Shown in pieces: positions 29,901 through 33,886 of a DNA stretch of 64,000 nt; position 1 is the stretch's first letter; each line of letters begins with the position of its first letter. Made by a program: the position numbers and the translations under genes. Source of the stretch: Acidimicrobiales bacterium (GTDB lineage Bacteria; Actinomycetota; Acidimicrobiia; Acidimicrobiales; JAHWLA01); assembly GCA_035536915.1 (NCBI GenBank), contig DATLNE010000009.1, positions 1 to 64,000 of the forward strand, written 5' to 3'. The notes under the pieces are model-generated. The model was not told where the DNA came from and searched no databases. It saw only the letters and a program-made list of their open reading frames with translations.

Positions 29901-30520
29901 GGTTCGCCCGGGCGGGCGTCGCCAACCACATGGGCGACCCCCAGACGGCGCTGGCCCAGTTGGCCGGGTGGAAGGCAGCCGACGCCGCGCCCGCCGACAT
30001 GGCGACCAGCGAAGGCAACGCCCTGCACGGGCTCGCCCTCTTGCAGTCGGGCGACGTCGAGGGCGCGCTCGACAGCGCCCGGAAAGCAGTCGACGCCGCA
30101 CCGGCGCCCGGGTCCAAGGCCGCAGCGCTGGCCCTCGTGGCGCTGGTCTTGGCCGCCGCCCGCCGGCCCACAGAGGCCCTCGAGGCGGCGGAGACAACGC
30201 TGTCGATCGAGGTGCACACGTACCTCGACAACGTGTTGTCCTTGGTCGCAACCGCCTGTGCGCTCGTGCAACTGGGCGACGAGCCCGGCGCCCGTGCTGC
30301 CTTCGACCAAGCCGAAGCCGTCGTCGACGCCACCGGCGACCGCATCCACCAAGCGGGCGTGCGCCTGGCCCGGGCGCGGGCGCTGGAGGCGTTGGGCGCG
30401 GCCGACGCCTGCGAAGCGCTCGACGAGGCCCGGGTGCGACTGGCGCAGCTCGACATCCCCGCGACCGGCTGGGACACGGCGTACCGGCTGGCCGCCGGCG
30501 CGTTGGCCCCTCAGGCCTGA
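26987..30520 (+). CDS. Zinc-ribbon / class III nucleotidyl cyclase / AAA ATPase / TPR signalling protein
   Basis: A 1177-aa multidomain protein. Residues 1-22 form a zinc ribbon (MKCPACA, FCPSCGH). Residues ~33-190 are a class III adenylate/guanylate cyclase homology domain with the metal-binding FADLVGFTSFSE and DKIVGDAIVALFGAP. A STAND/AAA-type ATPase follows (Walker A GEAGIGKSRL). The C-terminal ~550 residues consist of TPR-like Ala/Glu-rich helices. Such proteins link ligand or partner sensing by TPRs to ATPase and cyclase output. It overlaps the convergent LLM oxidoreductase gene by 10 bp. Whether the cyclase is active is not decided by sequence alone. Confidence 0.88.
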   Translation: MKCPACATQVPDGARFCPSCGHLLHARADERRIVTVLFADLVGFTSFSEGRDPEQVKNLVDRCFERLVGDINAFGGRVDKIVGDAIVALFGAPVAHEDDAERAVRAALQMQRTLATVTGELDSKVQLRIGVNTGEVLVGALRAGGDYTAMGDVVNVASRLQTLAVPGQVVVGPATRAATREVVEYECLGEVQARGREESITAWRALAALAPPGYRPRRTPTPLVGRSEELGVLRHTLAAAVGRRRAHLVLLIGEAGIGKSRLAEEMAHVARAENGALVLEGRCVPYGEANVWWPVAEAVRQACGIEPTDPADVSADKSRLAVERATGLDPTSEEASRLADGLLYLMGDEDALPNVDPTRAAEDARRSLLALLEAMAAQQPIMLVLSELHWADKLVLDLVDQLLDRLRHLPVVLVATARLELEDRWAPKPSRHNLIALHLDPLDEQAGRDLLTALLGEEPPRELRDALLERSGGNPFFLEELVALLSEAGVLRGDAWLSDSTVTTSELPATLRGLVAARLDALPADERSVLEDAAVFGRTGPVAALAMLAETRGVDFQSMLRDLSAKDLLALLDGEFEFRSELVREVAYETLTKAERARRHAALAEWLSANARATGREDEYLEQLAHHYGEAAELDKELGGVDGLPRDVCDTALQAIERAAVRAKQRDMHAVSIPLLDRALRLLPPGPGRPMRRVLLERARARTHLHDLGGARADLAEVFAQIEGGVHQLSRARALTVQGQILQTEGDLAGSAAALDEAIAGWRALGDARGEAEALSMRGMTSLFAGQAEEAEASIRQALEVFRSLGASRDEAWALWNLAWISFEEGRLTEAEARLEKSAATFTEARDWGGLAWAHGLLGFVKYFQGERRAAEAIAERVMVGIEERGDRWAHGMVLVLLGAVRLWDGRTTEAIDPAREAVRLFTGIADIRGQGLAYATLSRALVAAGRVREGVAVLDEADQAVIVNDITLNNGFARAGVANHMGDPQTALAQLAGWKAADAAPADMATSEGNALHGLALLQSGDVEGALDSARKAVDAAPAPGSKAAALALVALVLAAARRPTEALEAAETTLSIEVHTYLDNVLSLVATACALVQLGDEPGARAAFDQAEAVVDATGDRIHQAGVRLARARALEALGAADACEALDEARVRLAQLDIPATGWDTAYRLAAGALAPQA

Positions 30521-31374
30521 AGCGGCAGCAGTTCGGCGGCGGCCTCGCCGATCTCGTCGTCCCACGAGTCGGGCTCGGCCACGGGCACGACGACGAACTT
30601 GGAGAAGCCCACCTCGACGAAGCGCTCCAGCAGCGCACGCAGCGCCGGCAGGCCCGCCGGAATCACGTCGGCCGGGTCGGCGTCGGGGCGGCGGCGGCGC
30701 AGCGCCTCTACGACGGTATCCGGGAGGTCGTGGCGGGCGTAGGGGACGAGCACGCCCCAGTGCTCGGGGTCGACGGCCCGGCCTGCCTCGGCCGCCGCCT
30801 GCTCGATGACGGCCCGTCCGGCGGCGGCGTCAGGGGGCGTGGTGAAGCTGGGCAGCCAGCCGTCGGCCAGGCGGCCGACGCGGCGGAGCTCGCTGGGGGC
30901 GCGGCCGCCGAGCCACACGTCGAGCGGTCCCGGTTGCGGGCGGACGGTCACGCCGTCGACCTCTTCTCCGGCCCACAGTCGCCGGAGCGTGGTCAGCGCT
31001 TTGTCGAAGAGCGCGGCACGTTCGCCCCGGGCCACGCCGAAGGCCCGCTGCTCGCGCTCATCCGCGATGCCGAGGCCGAAGGCAGGCAGCAGGCGGCCCT
31101 GCGAGAGCACGTCGAGGCTGGCCAGTTCTTTGGCCAACACGGCGACGTTGCGCCCGGGCAGGACCAGCACGCTGAAGCCCAGCTTGAGCTTGGCCGTGCG
31201 CGCCGCCGCCCAGGTGCAGGCGACGACGGGGTCGAGGGCGTCGCTTGTGATGCGCTCTGACAGCCACAACGAGTCGAAGCCTTCACGTTCGAGGGCAGCC
31301 ACGAGGGCCGGGAACCGCGTCTCGGGCGAGGCGATCGGTTGGGTGCCGAGGCCGTAGCCGACGCGGACTTTCAT
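30511..31374 (-). CDS. LLM-class F420-dependent oxidoreductase
   Basis: A 287-aa luciferase-like TIM-barrel protein. MKVRVGYGLG, EREGFDSLWLSERI, KLKLGFSVLVLPGRN and GRLLPAFGLG are typical of the F420-dependent group. The substrate is unknown. ATG 31374 lies 8 nt after a TAGCCT -10 box; the longer open frame upstream overlaps the divergent methyltransferase gene and was rejected. F420 supply is consistent with cofC at 20678. Confidence 0.88.
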   Translation of the reverse strand: MKVRVGYGLGTQPIASPETRFPALVAALEREGFDSLWLSERITSDALDPVVACTWAAARTAKLKLGFSVLVLPGRNVAVLAKELASLDVLSQGRLLPAFGLGIADEREQRAFGVARGERAALFDKALTTLRRLWAGEEVDGVTVRPQPGPLDVWLGGRAPSELRRVGRLADGWLPSFTTPPDAAAGRAVIEQAAAEAGRAVDPEHWGVLVPYARHDLPDTVVEALRRRRPDADPADVIPAGLPALRALLERFVEVGFSKFVVVPVAEPDSWDDEIGEAAAELLPLQA

Positions 31375-31393: not shown

Positions 31394-32446
31394 GTGGAGC
31401 GCGACGTGGTGGCCGTGTACGACGAGCGCGGGCCGCAGTGGGCGGCGTTGCGCACCGCGGTGCGAGCCGACGATGCGCGGGCGTTCGGCGCTTCCGTGGT
31501 GGGCCTTCGGGCCGATGTCGGGTGCGGGGCGGGTCGGTACCTCGGCGAGTTGGGTGCGCCGGTGGTGGGGTTCGACGCCTCGGCCACCATGCTGCGACTG
31601 GCCGGGGAGGCGGTGCCCGGCGCCATGCTCGTGCAAGCCGACCTCGAAGCCCTGCCGTTCCGCGACCGCAGCCTGGCCGGGGCGTGGGCCAACATGGCCT
31701 ACCTCCACGTGCCGCGGCCGCGCCTGCCGTTGGCGTTGGCCCGACTGCACCTGGCGTTGCGGGTGGGCGCGCCGCTCGACCTGCAGGTGCTGGCAGGCGA
31801 CTTCGACTGGGACGTGCTGGCCGACGACGACGTGCCCGGCCGCAAGTTCGCCGGGTGGCCCGTCGACCGCCTGGTCGACGTCGTGGTGGGCGCCGGGTTT
31901 TCGGTGGAGGCGACGGTGACGGGCGACGGCTGGGTGCGGGTGCGAGCCACGCGGCTGCGCACGCTGCCCGACACGGTGGGGCCGGGCATGCGGGTGCTGA
32001 TCTGCGGGCTCAACCCCAGCGAGTACTCGGCCGACCGGGGCGTCGGCTTTGCCCGGCGGTCCAACCGGTTCTGGGGCGCCGCCGTGGAGGCGGGGTTGGT
32101 GTCGAAGCCGTTCGACACGCTGCACGCACTGACGGTCGACGGCGTGGGCATGACCGACATGGTGAAGCGGGCCACCGTCGCCTCGCGGGAACTGTCGCGC
32201 GACGAGTACCGGGAGGGCGCGGCCCGGGTGGAGCGGCTGGTGCAATGGTTGCGGCCCCGAGTGGTGTGCTTCGTGGGGCTGGAAGGGTGGCGGGCGGCGC
32301 TCAACCGGTCGGCGGTGGCCGGGTGGCAGCCGCAGGACTTCGGCGGGGTGCCTGCCTATGTCATGCCGTCGACCAGCGGCCTCAATGCCTCGGCGTCGCG
32401 CACAGCGCTCGCCGCCCACCTCCGGGCCATCCGCGGCCCAGAATGA
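31394..32446 (+). CDS. Methyltransferase fused to a Mug/TDG-family mismatch uracil-DNA glycosylase
   Basis: A 350-aa fusion. Residues ~1-185 are a class I SAM-dependent methyltransferase (ADVGCGAGRYLGELG, GFDASATMLRLA, DLEALPF). Residues ~190-350 are a Mug-type glycosylase: LICGLNPSEYSA with probable catalytic Asn207, FARRSNRFWGAA, GMTDMVKRAT and the recognition loop MPSTSGLNA. Mug enzymes remove uracil or damaged pyrimidines opposite G. The frame is continuous through the join, with no internal stop or start suggesting two genes. The methyltransferase substrate is unknown. Confidence 0.85.
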   Translation: MERDVVAVYDERGPQWAALRTAVRADDARAFGASVVGLRADVGCGAGRYLGELGAPVVGFDASATMLRLAGEAVPGAMLVQADLEALPFRDRSLAGAWANMAYLHVPRPRLPLALARLHLALRVGAPLDLQVLAGDFDWDVLADDDVPGRKFAGWPVDRLVDVVVGAGFSVEATVTGDGWVRVRATRLRTLPDTVGPGMRVLICGLNPSEYSADRGVGFARRSNRFWGAAVEAGLVSKPFDTLHALTVDGVGMTDMVKRATVASRELSRDEYREGAARVERLVQWLRPRVVCFVGLEGWRAALNRSAVAGWQPQDFGGVPAYVMPSTSGLNASASRTALAAHLRAIRGPE

Positions 32447-32680: not shown

Positions 32681-33823
32681 TCAGGCGGCGAGGCTGAGCG
32701 AGCCCGGTGGTCGGGTGCTTCTGGTGCGGCCCCTTGGGTGGGTGACCACCAAGGTGCCATCCGGTTCGAGCTTCTCGGACCAGCCCGGTTGGTGGCCCAG
32801 GTGGTGGTGCCTGCTGCACTTGAGCACCAGGTTGTCCAAGCTCGTCGTGCCGCCGTCATGCCAGGGCACCACATGGTGGGCATCGCACCACTGCGACGGG
32901 CGGTCGCAGCCTTCGAACCGGCAGTGCCGATCCCGCAGCACCAGCGCCGACCACAGCGGGGCCGGGATGGTGCGGGTCGACGTGCCGTAGTCGAGGATGG
33001 TGGAGCGACCGTCGGTCACCACTCGGTGGACGGCGGCGTCGCACGCCAGCGCCTGCACCGACGCACCGTCGAGCACGCCACCACCGACGAAGCTCCCGGC
33101 CTTGCCGGCACGCAGGGCTTCGTAGTCGACCACGACGTTGAGGTGGGGGCGGTGCCTGCCACCGCGCCGACCGCTCTGGTGGTCGAGGAAGAACCTGCAG
33201 ACGTCGACCAGTGCATCGGCCCTGCGCTGCGACGGCAGCACGTCGGGGTCGTCGACCACCGCCAACCGCAATGCGGTGGCCACCGTTTCGCCGCCCAGCG
33301 CGTCGAGTGATCCCATCAGTTCCCATTGGCCGTCCAACGTCTGTGACAGGTGGACGCCCCTCTCGAGCTTCGGCTCGATGTCGAGCATTGCTTTCCACTG
33401 CTGCATGGCCAACGCGGTGTCGGCCACCGACAGATCCATCAACGCCGGCACCACTGCACTTTCGTGCTCTGCGAACTCCGGCGTGGCGTTGCGCACGATC
33501 GCCTGCACCTGGCCGCCCGACAGCGTGCCTTCGAGCCACGCTCCCGCGGTCATCGGCAGCGAACGGAGTTTCTTTGCCGTGGAGGCAATGCTCTTCGCGC
33601 TGCTCGACGTCATGCCTGCGTGGTGTCGAAGCCAGGCCGTCATCGACGTCGCTCCGTCAAGCTCCCACAGACCCTCGGCGTCGAACTCGCCGATCACCCG
33701 CGTCACCTTGGCGTTGAGCAGGTCGACCAGCTTCAGCACCTCGGCCAAGGCGACGCCGTCGAGCGGAACGTCCGGTGCTTCGACGGCCTCGCGTAGCGCG
33801 GCGATCACGCGCTCATCGTACAC
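32681..33823 (-). CDS. DUF222 / HNH endonuclease family protein, copy 2
   Basis: 380 aa, the same length as the copy at 1679-2821. Over the first 60 residues only about five differ. The HNH region is intact (CRFEGC, DAHHVVPWHDGG, DNLVLKC, RHHH). GTG 33823 matches the start of copy 1. An open frame continues upstream to 33883 (FIYKGFSLAA), but it crosses the palindromic leader and is not open in copy 1, so it was not used. DNA similarity between the copies runs from just after the stop codon to the GGGAATT at the leader edge. Confidence 0.85.
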   Translation of the reverse strand: MYDERVIAALREAVEAPDVPLDGVALAEVLKLVDLLNAKVTRVIGEFDAEGLWELDGATSMTAWLRHHAGMTSSSAKSIASTAKKLRSLPMTAGAWLEGTLSGGQVQAIVRNATPEFAEHESAVVPALMDLSVADTALAMQQWKAMLDIEPKLERGVHLSQTLDGQWELMGSLDALGGETVATALRLAVVDDPDVLPSQRRADALVDVCRFFLDHQSGRRGGRHRPHLNVVVDYEALRAGKAGSFVGGGVLDGASVQALACDAAVHRVVTDGRSTILDYGTSTRTIPAPLWSALVLRDRHCRFEGCDRPSQWCDAHHVVPWHDGGTTSLDNLVLKCSRHHHLGHQPGWSEKLEPDGTLVVTHPRGRTRSTRPPGSLSLAA

Positions 33824-33840
33824 ACGTTCGATTGCCGCCG

Positions 33841-33868
33841 CAAGGGAAAATCCCTTGTAAATAAAGGG
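33841..33868. promoter_or_regulatory. Overlapping palindromes in the leader of DUF222/HNH copy 2
   Basis: CAAGGGA-N3-TCCCTTG (33841-33857) overlaps CCCTT-GTAAATA-AAGGG (33852-33868). The layout is the same as at 2839-2868, with the three-base loop changed to its complement. It lies 19 bp after the acyl-CoA dehydrogenase stop. Confidence 0.6.
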
Positions 33869-33886
33869 AATTCTCCCCCTCAACGC

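Follow-up and report, generated by a model that had tools for sequence, protein, structure and literature searches.

A class I methyltransferase fold and a Mug-type DNA glycosylase joined in one chain in Acidimicrobiales

A single gene in the window (the whole stretch of 64,000 nucleotides analyzed here, from an Acidimicrobiales genome, contig DATLNE010000009.1) encodes a class I SAM methyltransferase fold followed by a Mug-type DNA glycosylase. Sequence comparison confirmed that this is an old one-chain fusion, with the catalytic signatures of both parts intact in the full-length form. Both domains are already known and their combination is new; no description of a methyltransferase-Mug fusion was found in the open-access PMC literature, a set outside which most subscription papers lie. 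The reading that we consider probable is that the protein is a lineage-specific Mug/TDG-type glycosylase, that methyl transfer is a separate, accessory and dispensable activity, and that the C-terminal half of the methyltransferase serves as a structural arm of the glycosylase.

One reading frame, two folds

The frame at 31394-32446 on the forward strand runs without an internal stop and yields one protein of 350 amino acids, whose start residue is common to most full-length homologues. The features of the gene and its neighbors are as follows.

31394..32446, forward strand: whole fusion gene, GTG start, 350 amino acids, stop codon within the span
31394..31963, forward strand: class I SAM methyltransferase domain, residues 1-190 (Pfam; fold match to 3e23)
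31499..31705, forward strand: SAM-binding half, residues 36-104 (D41, G43, G45, G47, D61), absent from shortened homologues
31700..31963, forward strand: C-terminal half of the methyltransferase, residues 103-190 (LPLALARLH...GAGF), the equivalent of the retained stump (profile-profile match)
31823..31858, forward strand: DDxPGRxF loop, residues 144-155, conserved among full-length proteins; most stumps have lost it or carry it degraded
31970..32443, forward strand: Mug/TDG-type glycosylase domain, residues 193-350 (Pfam; fold match to 1mug)
32006..32020, forward strand: motif 1 GLNPS, residues 205-209, with catalytic Asn207 aligned to E. coli Mug Asn18
32153..32170, forward strand: motif 3 TDMVKR, residues 254-259, with Asp255 aligned to E. 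coli Mug Lys68 and TDG Asn191, and Lys258
32363..32389, forward strand: motif 2 loop MPSTSGLNA, residues 324-332 (alignment)
30511..31374, reverse strand: LLM-class (luciferase-like) flavin oxidoreductase, divergent (Pfam Bac_luciferase, E = 1.1e-34)
32681-33883, reverse strand: DUF222/HNH endonuclease-type gene, downstream and facing the fusion gene (Pfam)

The methyltransferase (residues 1 to 190) precedes the glycosylase (residues 193 to 350) with no linker between them: in the PDB matches and the predicted model, the last methyltransferase strand passes directly into the first Mug residues. The model of the whole chain was predicted with a pLDDT of 95.9 and a pTM of 0.93. The closest homologues of the fusion protein share 48 to 79% identity, most of them spanning residues 1 to 346, and the single-frame architecture was found in 91 of 157 glycosylase open reading frames (duplicates between collections counted). 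The earlier note had proposed a methyltransferase and a Mug-type glycosylase in one chain, and the reading frame, Pfam, PDB and the homologues all bear this out; the two parts are not always unlinked genes, the fusion being widespread among homologues. Long spurious reading frames do arise in GC-rich DNA, and it could be argued that annotation has merged two separate products or that the frame is read through by chance. We found no support for such an artefact, and it is hardly credible given that start, frame and junction are conserved in tens of genomes. A sequencing or frame artefact is ruled out because the identical single-frame architecture recurs in many genomes. In one draft genome (G069), a full-length fusion gene (L060, 1103-2273, forward strand) is split by a shift of frame within the glycosylase region, which may be an assembly error.

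The glycosylase and its base pocket

Pfam recognized the glycosylase part as UDG (PF03167) over residues 194 to 336 (E = 3.3e-13, above the curated cut-off), and the NCBIfam Mug model PRK10201 matched it with E = 5.5e-23, at 81.5 versus 144 bits and so under the equivalog cut-off. The closest solved glycosylase in a PDB search was E. coli Mug (E = 1.4e-18), and residues 190 to 350 of the model matched 1mug with Z = 25.0 and an rmsd of 1.6 over 159 residues. With E. coli Mug and human TDG, family 2 of the UDG superfamily, the protein shares the fold, the catalytic Asn of motif 1 and the order of the motifs. The subfamily differs from them in its N-terminal methyltransferase or stump, in an Asp at the position of Lys68/Asn191, and in its GLNPS and MPSTSGLNA motifs. 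Canonical Mugs of the order and phylum have a homologous glycosylase domain and differ in lacking the methyltransferase part and in carrying Asn at position 255. UdgX shares the UDG fold (Z about 14) with different motifs and, according to the available part of PMC10776899, cross-links itself to DNA.

A GLNPSEYSA motif and a variant recognition loop had been singled out earlier, and alignments uphold both: GLNPSEYSA occupies residues 205 to 213 and MPSTSGLNA residues 324 to 332, both are typical for the subfamily, and the loop is intermediate between PNPSGLS of Mug and MPSSSAR of TDG. Asn at position 207 is present in all 118 subfamily rows and all 16 canonical rows, and the glycosylase part would be expected to flip out a damaged or mispaired base and excise it with this motif 1 Asn. 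The Gly of motif 1 (GINPG) is replaced by Ser in 117 of the 118 subfamily rows, a Ser also found there in ordinary Mugs.

The pocket differs from that of canonical Mugs at position 255, which the alignment places at E. coli Mug Lys68. Asp occupies it in 116 of 118 subfamily rows (the other two have Asn), as opposed to Asn in 16/16 canonical rows. Among further rows, 16 of 18 subfamily members at class level have Asp, and 20/20 canonical Mugs, two of them from the same class as the subfamily, have Asn, so that ordinary Mugs carry Asn in 36/36 in total. The Asn255 exceptions named among these further rows, L211 (whose glycosylase row is the same as that of L139) and L212, group with L148 in a single clade of full-length proteins, and a quick tree put L139 and L148 near the base of the subfamily. 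This fits an origin of Asp255 after the fusion, on a basal order that is not firm. The family 2 fold and the catalytic Asn are retained alongside Asp255, and we therefore name the group a variant subfamily of family 2. The named members open motif 3 with Lys (E. coli Mug) or Asn (TDG and ordinary actinobacterial Mug), a feature that is no formal criterion of that family. Lys258 lies three residues on, and Asp255/Lys258 (window 32156-32167) is a charge swap of Lys68/Asp71 in E. coli Mug, so the i to i+3 charge pair may have been kept with reversed sign. Three stump-less rows (L061, L065, L066) retain Asp255 and have Ala at 258.

The Lys68 position of E. coli Mug corresponds to TDG Asn191 in the available text of PMC9800633. 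In UDGs, the residue at this position forms a hydrogen bond with the base, and a Mug with Lys68Asn is broader in activity, as stated in the part of PMC10776899 at hand. With the base-reading residue changed from Asn or Lys to Asp, the substrate range has therefore probably shifted, and we predict, by analogy, an altered base specificity of the glycosylase. UNG Asn123 is, we assume, the position equivalent to residue 255 of the fusion protein. The laboratory mutant UNG Asn123Asp is a cytosine glycosylase, according to the accessible portion of PMC3989344. By analogy, the subfamily could be a natural cytosine-type DNA glycosylase, in which Asp255 would recognize a cytosine that is modified or mispaired, with the arm derived from the methyltransferase acting as a gate on the accessible sites; we put this forward as something of a long shot.

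An unusual acidic residue in a Mug fold also occurs in D. radiodurans MUG (MUG2), where it is catalytic, as described in the available part of PMC5128194. Its Asp93 appears near residue ~264 of our protein (Ala/Ser here), a placement from the aligned range only, and not at Asp255. The D93A mutant chain outscores the wild type against the subfamily profiles; Asp93 therefore points to another column than Asp255, and the idea that Asp255 is the catalytic Asp of MUG2 was dropped.

The methyltransferase and the loss of its SAM-binding half

The N-terminal part matched Methyltransf_25 over residues 41 to 124 (E = 4.4e-11) and Methyltransf_11 (E = 7.5e-11), both above the curated cut-offs. Residues 1 to 189 of the model matched RPA2492 (3e23) with Z = 24.9 and an rmsd of 1.8 over 180 residues, and structure comparison with cg3271 (3h2b) gave Z = 24.1. 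These two small class I SAM methyltransferases share the whole-domain fold and the SAM motifs and differ in being stand-alone proteins. The DxGxGxG motif and the acidic end of beta-2 are present (D41, G43, G45, G47, D61) and are invariant or near-invariant in alignments of 32 and 55 sequences, and H105 and R150 are near-invariant or invariant in full-length proteins.

DNA methyltransferases carry a [DNS]PP[YFW] or PC motif after beta-4. Here residues 98 to 105 read WANMAYLH, with neither motif after beta-4 in this protein or in the aligned columns. An identity as a DNA methyltransferase was rejected on these grounds, and the suggestion that the domain modifies DNA bases found no support. In both sequence and fold, the domain is similar to methyltransferases that act on small molecules and RNA. 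Its structural neighbors act on targets too diverse (tRNA, sugars, small heterocycles) for a substrate to be named, and naming one from NCBIfam was given up, as the DVU_1556 family, BioC, UbiE and other matches all fell far below their cut-offs. We suggest that the reaction of this domain would be accessory and separate from that of the glycosylase, with a small molecule or RNA as its most likely target. Stand-alone relatives at 44 to 47% identity, with the same YLH and DDFPGR motifs, are encoded by L072 (3971-4633, reverse strand) and L073 (3917-4714, reverse strand). Both branch next to the fused group in a tree whose exact placement of them is not firm, and both of their genomes (n = 2) encode an ordinary Mug elsewhere.

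The chain could instead be a coupled bifunctional enzyme, in which methylation of the same DNA site, of the excised base or of a repair partner would form one pathway with excision. Consistent with this, full-length proteins conserve the two active sites under comparable constraint, and the model predicts, with no linker and a pTM of 0.93, a fixed mutual arrangement. We nevertheless regard coupling as unlikely: the SAM half has been lost repeatedly with the glycosylase retained, a DNA methyltransferase motif is absent, and close stand-alone methyltransferases occur in genomes with an ordinary Mug. The earlier proposal that both folds act on one lesion is likewise unsupported as a requirement, since DNA methyltransferase motifs are absent; many homologues have kept the glycosylase after losing the SAM-binding half and, in most cases, the DDxPGRxF loop as well.

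The losses themselves are evident from 124 non-redundant rows, comprising 81 full-length, 34 shortened (in a few of which the stump was recognized by eye and missed by the profile), 3 without a stump and 6 cut by contig ends. In shortened homologues, the first ~100 methyltransferase residues are absent from every frame of the flanking DNA, and usually up to ~90 residues are kept ahead of the glycosylase, a stretch (LPxxLAxLHRxLxVG...GAGF) equivalent to residues 103 to 190 of the window protein. A profile of this stump (32 shortened rows, without L167 and L171) matched the C-terminal half of the fused methyltransferase with a probability of 99.2 (E = 1.9e-19), compared with 0.07 for the N-terminal half, and matched stand-alone methyltransferases, fused sequences excluded, with a probability of 95 (E = 3.7e-8). 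Aligning 28 full-length with 16 stump proteins showed no variation at P112, G166 or G168. The predicted model of one stump protein (L164; pLDDT 95.1, pTM 0.92) has a strand-helix-strand-helix-strand-strand order ahead of Mug.

Most stumps have lost the DDxPGRxF loop. In L167 and L171 it is still there in changed form, and L171 has Arg in place of the invariant His105, a state that, judged from these residues, looks like recent loss. In L167, residue ~105 follows what remains of the methyltransferase start, its first ~16 residues (E = 0.0088 for the profile among 45 sequences). A similar internal deletion in L166 ('LNRSTVEVYDA' before 'RLPMKLA') was set aside, being recognized by eye only, with a silent N-terminal profile and no standard start codon. 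The stump is wholly absent from L061, L065, L066 and L222 and strongly degraded in L221 and L223; the arm is therefore not absolutely required. L065 (1669-2598, forward strand) and L066 (3974-4861, forward strand), both of family f4, have a different C-terminal extension of ~110 residues (TYW..PGRT.EFYPDAVTLHP), and for the tail of L066 Pfam gave nothing up to E = 1.

The SAM-binding half has been lost repeatedly. Full-length and stump forms are interspersed in a glycosylase-only tree, and a single origin of the stump was rejected in a careful tree of 74 rows in which 20 stump rows were held together (p-AU = 3.5e-05, a cost of 167 log units; 6 contig-cut or stump-less rows left out). In a quick tree of 130 rows, from which 10 of the 16 canonical rows were left out, the starred branches force at least five changes of form. 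Stump and full-length proteins are sisters in L083/L041 (support 100/97, one genus code) and L035/L064 (100/98), and genomes G114 and G029 place both forms inside one genus code. Regain by recombination could partly explain the interspersed forms. Most of these genomes are draft metagenome assemblies, and the stump forms of relatives come from genomes of more than one contig, several of them from contigs of 140 to 700 kb.

Across nine full-length pairs, the dN ratio of methyltransferase to glycosylase was 0.6 to 1.5; across eight stump pairs, the ratio of stump to glycosylase was 2.4 to 4.8, a value inflated if the windows include a few non-homologous upstream residues. A complete methyltransferase is therefore maintained as an enzyme, and in the incomplete form just the framework is preserved. 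The higher stump dN, together with the loss or strong degradation of the stump in some members, would also be expected of a neutral fusion, in which an old joining put unrelated enzymes on one chain and the stump is a slowly decaying remainder without function. This account is rather improbable in our estimation, as stumps keep P112, G166, G168, L115, H119 and F169 across many lineages, the stump folds confidently in the predicted model, and members of the fused subfamily are never found beside a canonical Mug. Contig-cut genes aside, retention of the methyltransferase without Mug was not seen in any member of the fused group.

We therefore favor a glycosylase with a structural arm, because the SAM-binding half has been lost repeatedly while a stump of ~90 residues stays attached, which suggests that the stump now belongs to the glycosylase itself. 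This arm would have formed from the C-terminal half of the methyltransferase, with its strands beta-5, beta-6 and beta-7 and its two helices. Where methyl transfer was no longer needed, the SAM-binding half may have been lost and later the active-site loop, the ~90-residue arm staying in place.

Distribution, gene surroundings and significance

Some match to the fusion protein was found in 105 of 148 genomes (the own genome counted), many of the weak ones being other methyltransferases. Many families of the order have full-length fusions, and a class-wide sample of 198 genomes added examples from further orders. The phylum sample comprised 396 genomes, of which 123 matched; 14 of these are the own genome or belong to the same class. 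The fusion was not seen in the 109 matching genomes of other classes: among the matches listed, none covers both parts, with no glycosylase match starting before model position 181 and no methyltransferase match extending past position 206. A scan of contigs returned at least 80 loci, and those titles that name a group below the phylum are mostly Acidimicrobiia, Acidimicrobiales, Acidimicrobiaceae, Microthrix, Aquihabitans and Poriferisocius, with a few titles of other metagenome-assembled genomes (Acidobacteriota, Actinomycetes, Actinomyces) among the matches listed. None of 97 matching plasmid records covers 80% of the query and none of seven matching phage records gives a full-length match, and a mobile origin was rejected on the absence of full-length matches from both.

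Within the 148 genomes, the subfamily is present in 59 (58 relatives and the own genome), canonical Mug in 16, and both in 0. The fused subfamily stands in for ordinary Mug in its genomes. It forms one clade against the canonical Mugs of the order (support 100/100), and 40 subfamily rows again form one clade against 36 canonical Mugs from the order, class and phylum (support 100, a starred branch). The own genome has two more UDG-superfamily genes, L001 (1438-1995, reverse strand, on C1) and L002 (1456-2691, reverse strand, on C49), which by motif are presumably of UDG family 4 and family 5.

Flanking-ORF clustering yielded mostly spurious GC-rich reading frames, and the clearest class of neighbor was the LLM flavin oxidoreductases. 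In the window, the start codon of the LLM gene lies ~20 bp from the fusion gene on the opposite strand, and an LLM gene occurs within ~4 kb flanks at 28 of 60 subfamily loci of relatives, compared with 0 of 16 canonical Mug loci. These neighbors are of at least two types and sit convergent downstream or upstream. Because their position and type vary, we read this as synteny, without a functional link.

Taken across much of a bacterial class, a repair glycosylase is joined to a methyltransferase, and the occurrence of the chain with and without its SAM-binding half provides natural replicates in which the role of the added fold is directly testable. Altered specificity is a concrete prediction from the Asp at the base-reading position, with a bearing on repair biology as well as on base editing with glycosylases. 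Should the stump prove necessary, half a Rossmann-type domain would have been retained as part of another enzyme, and if the cytosine reading is true, a repair enzyme would have taken up a methyltransferase half-fold as a part that reads DNA or acts as a gate.
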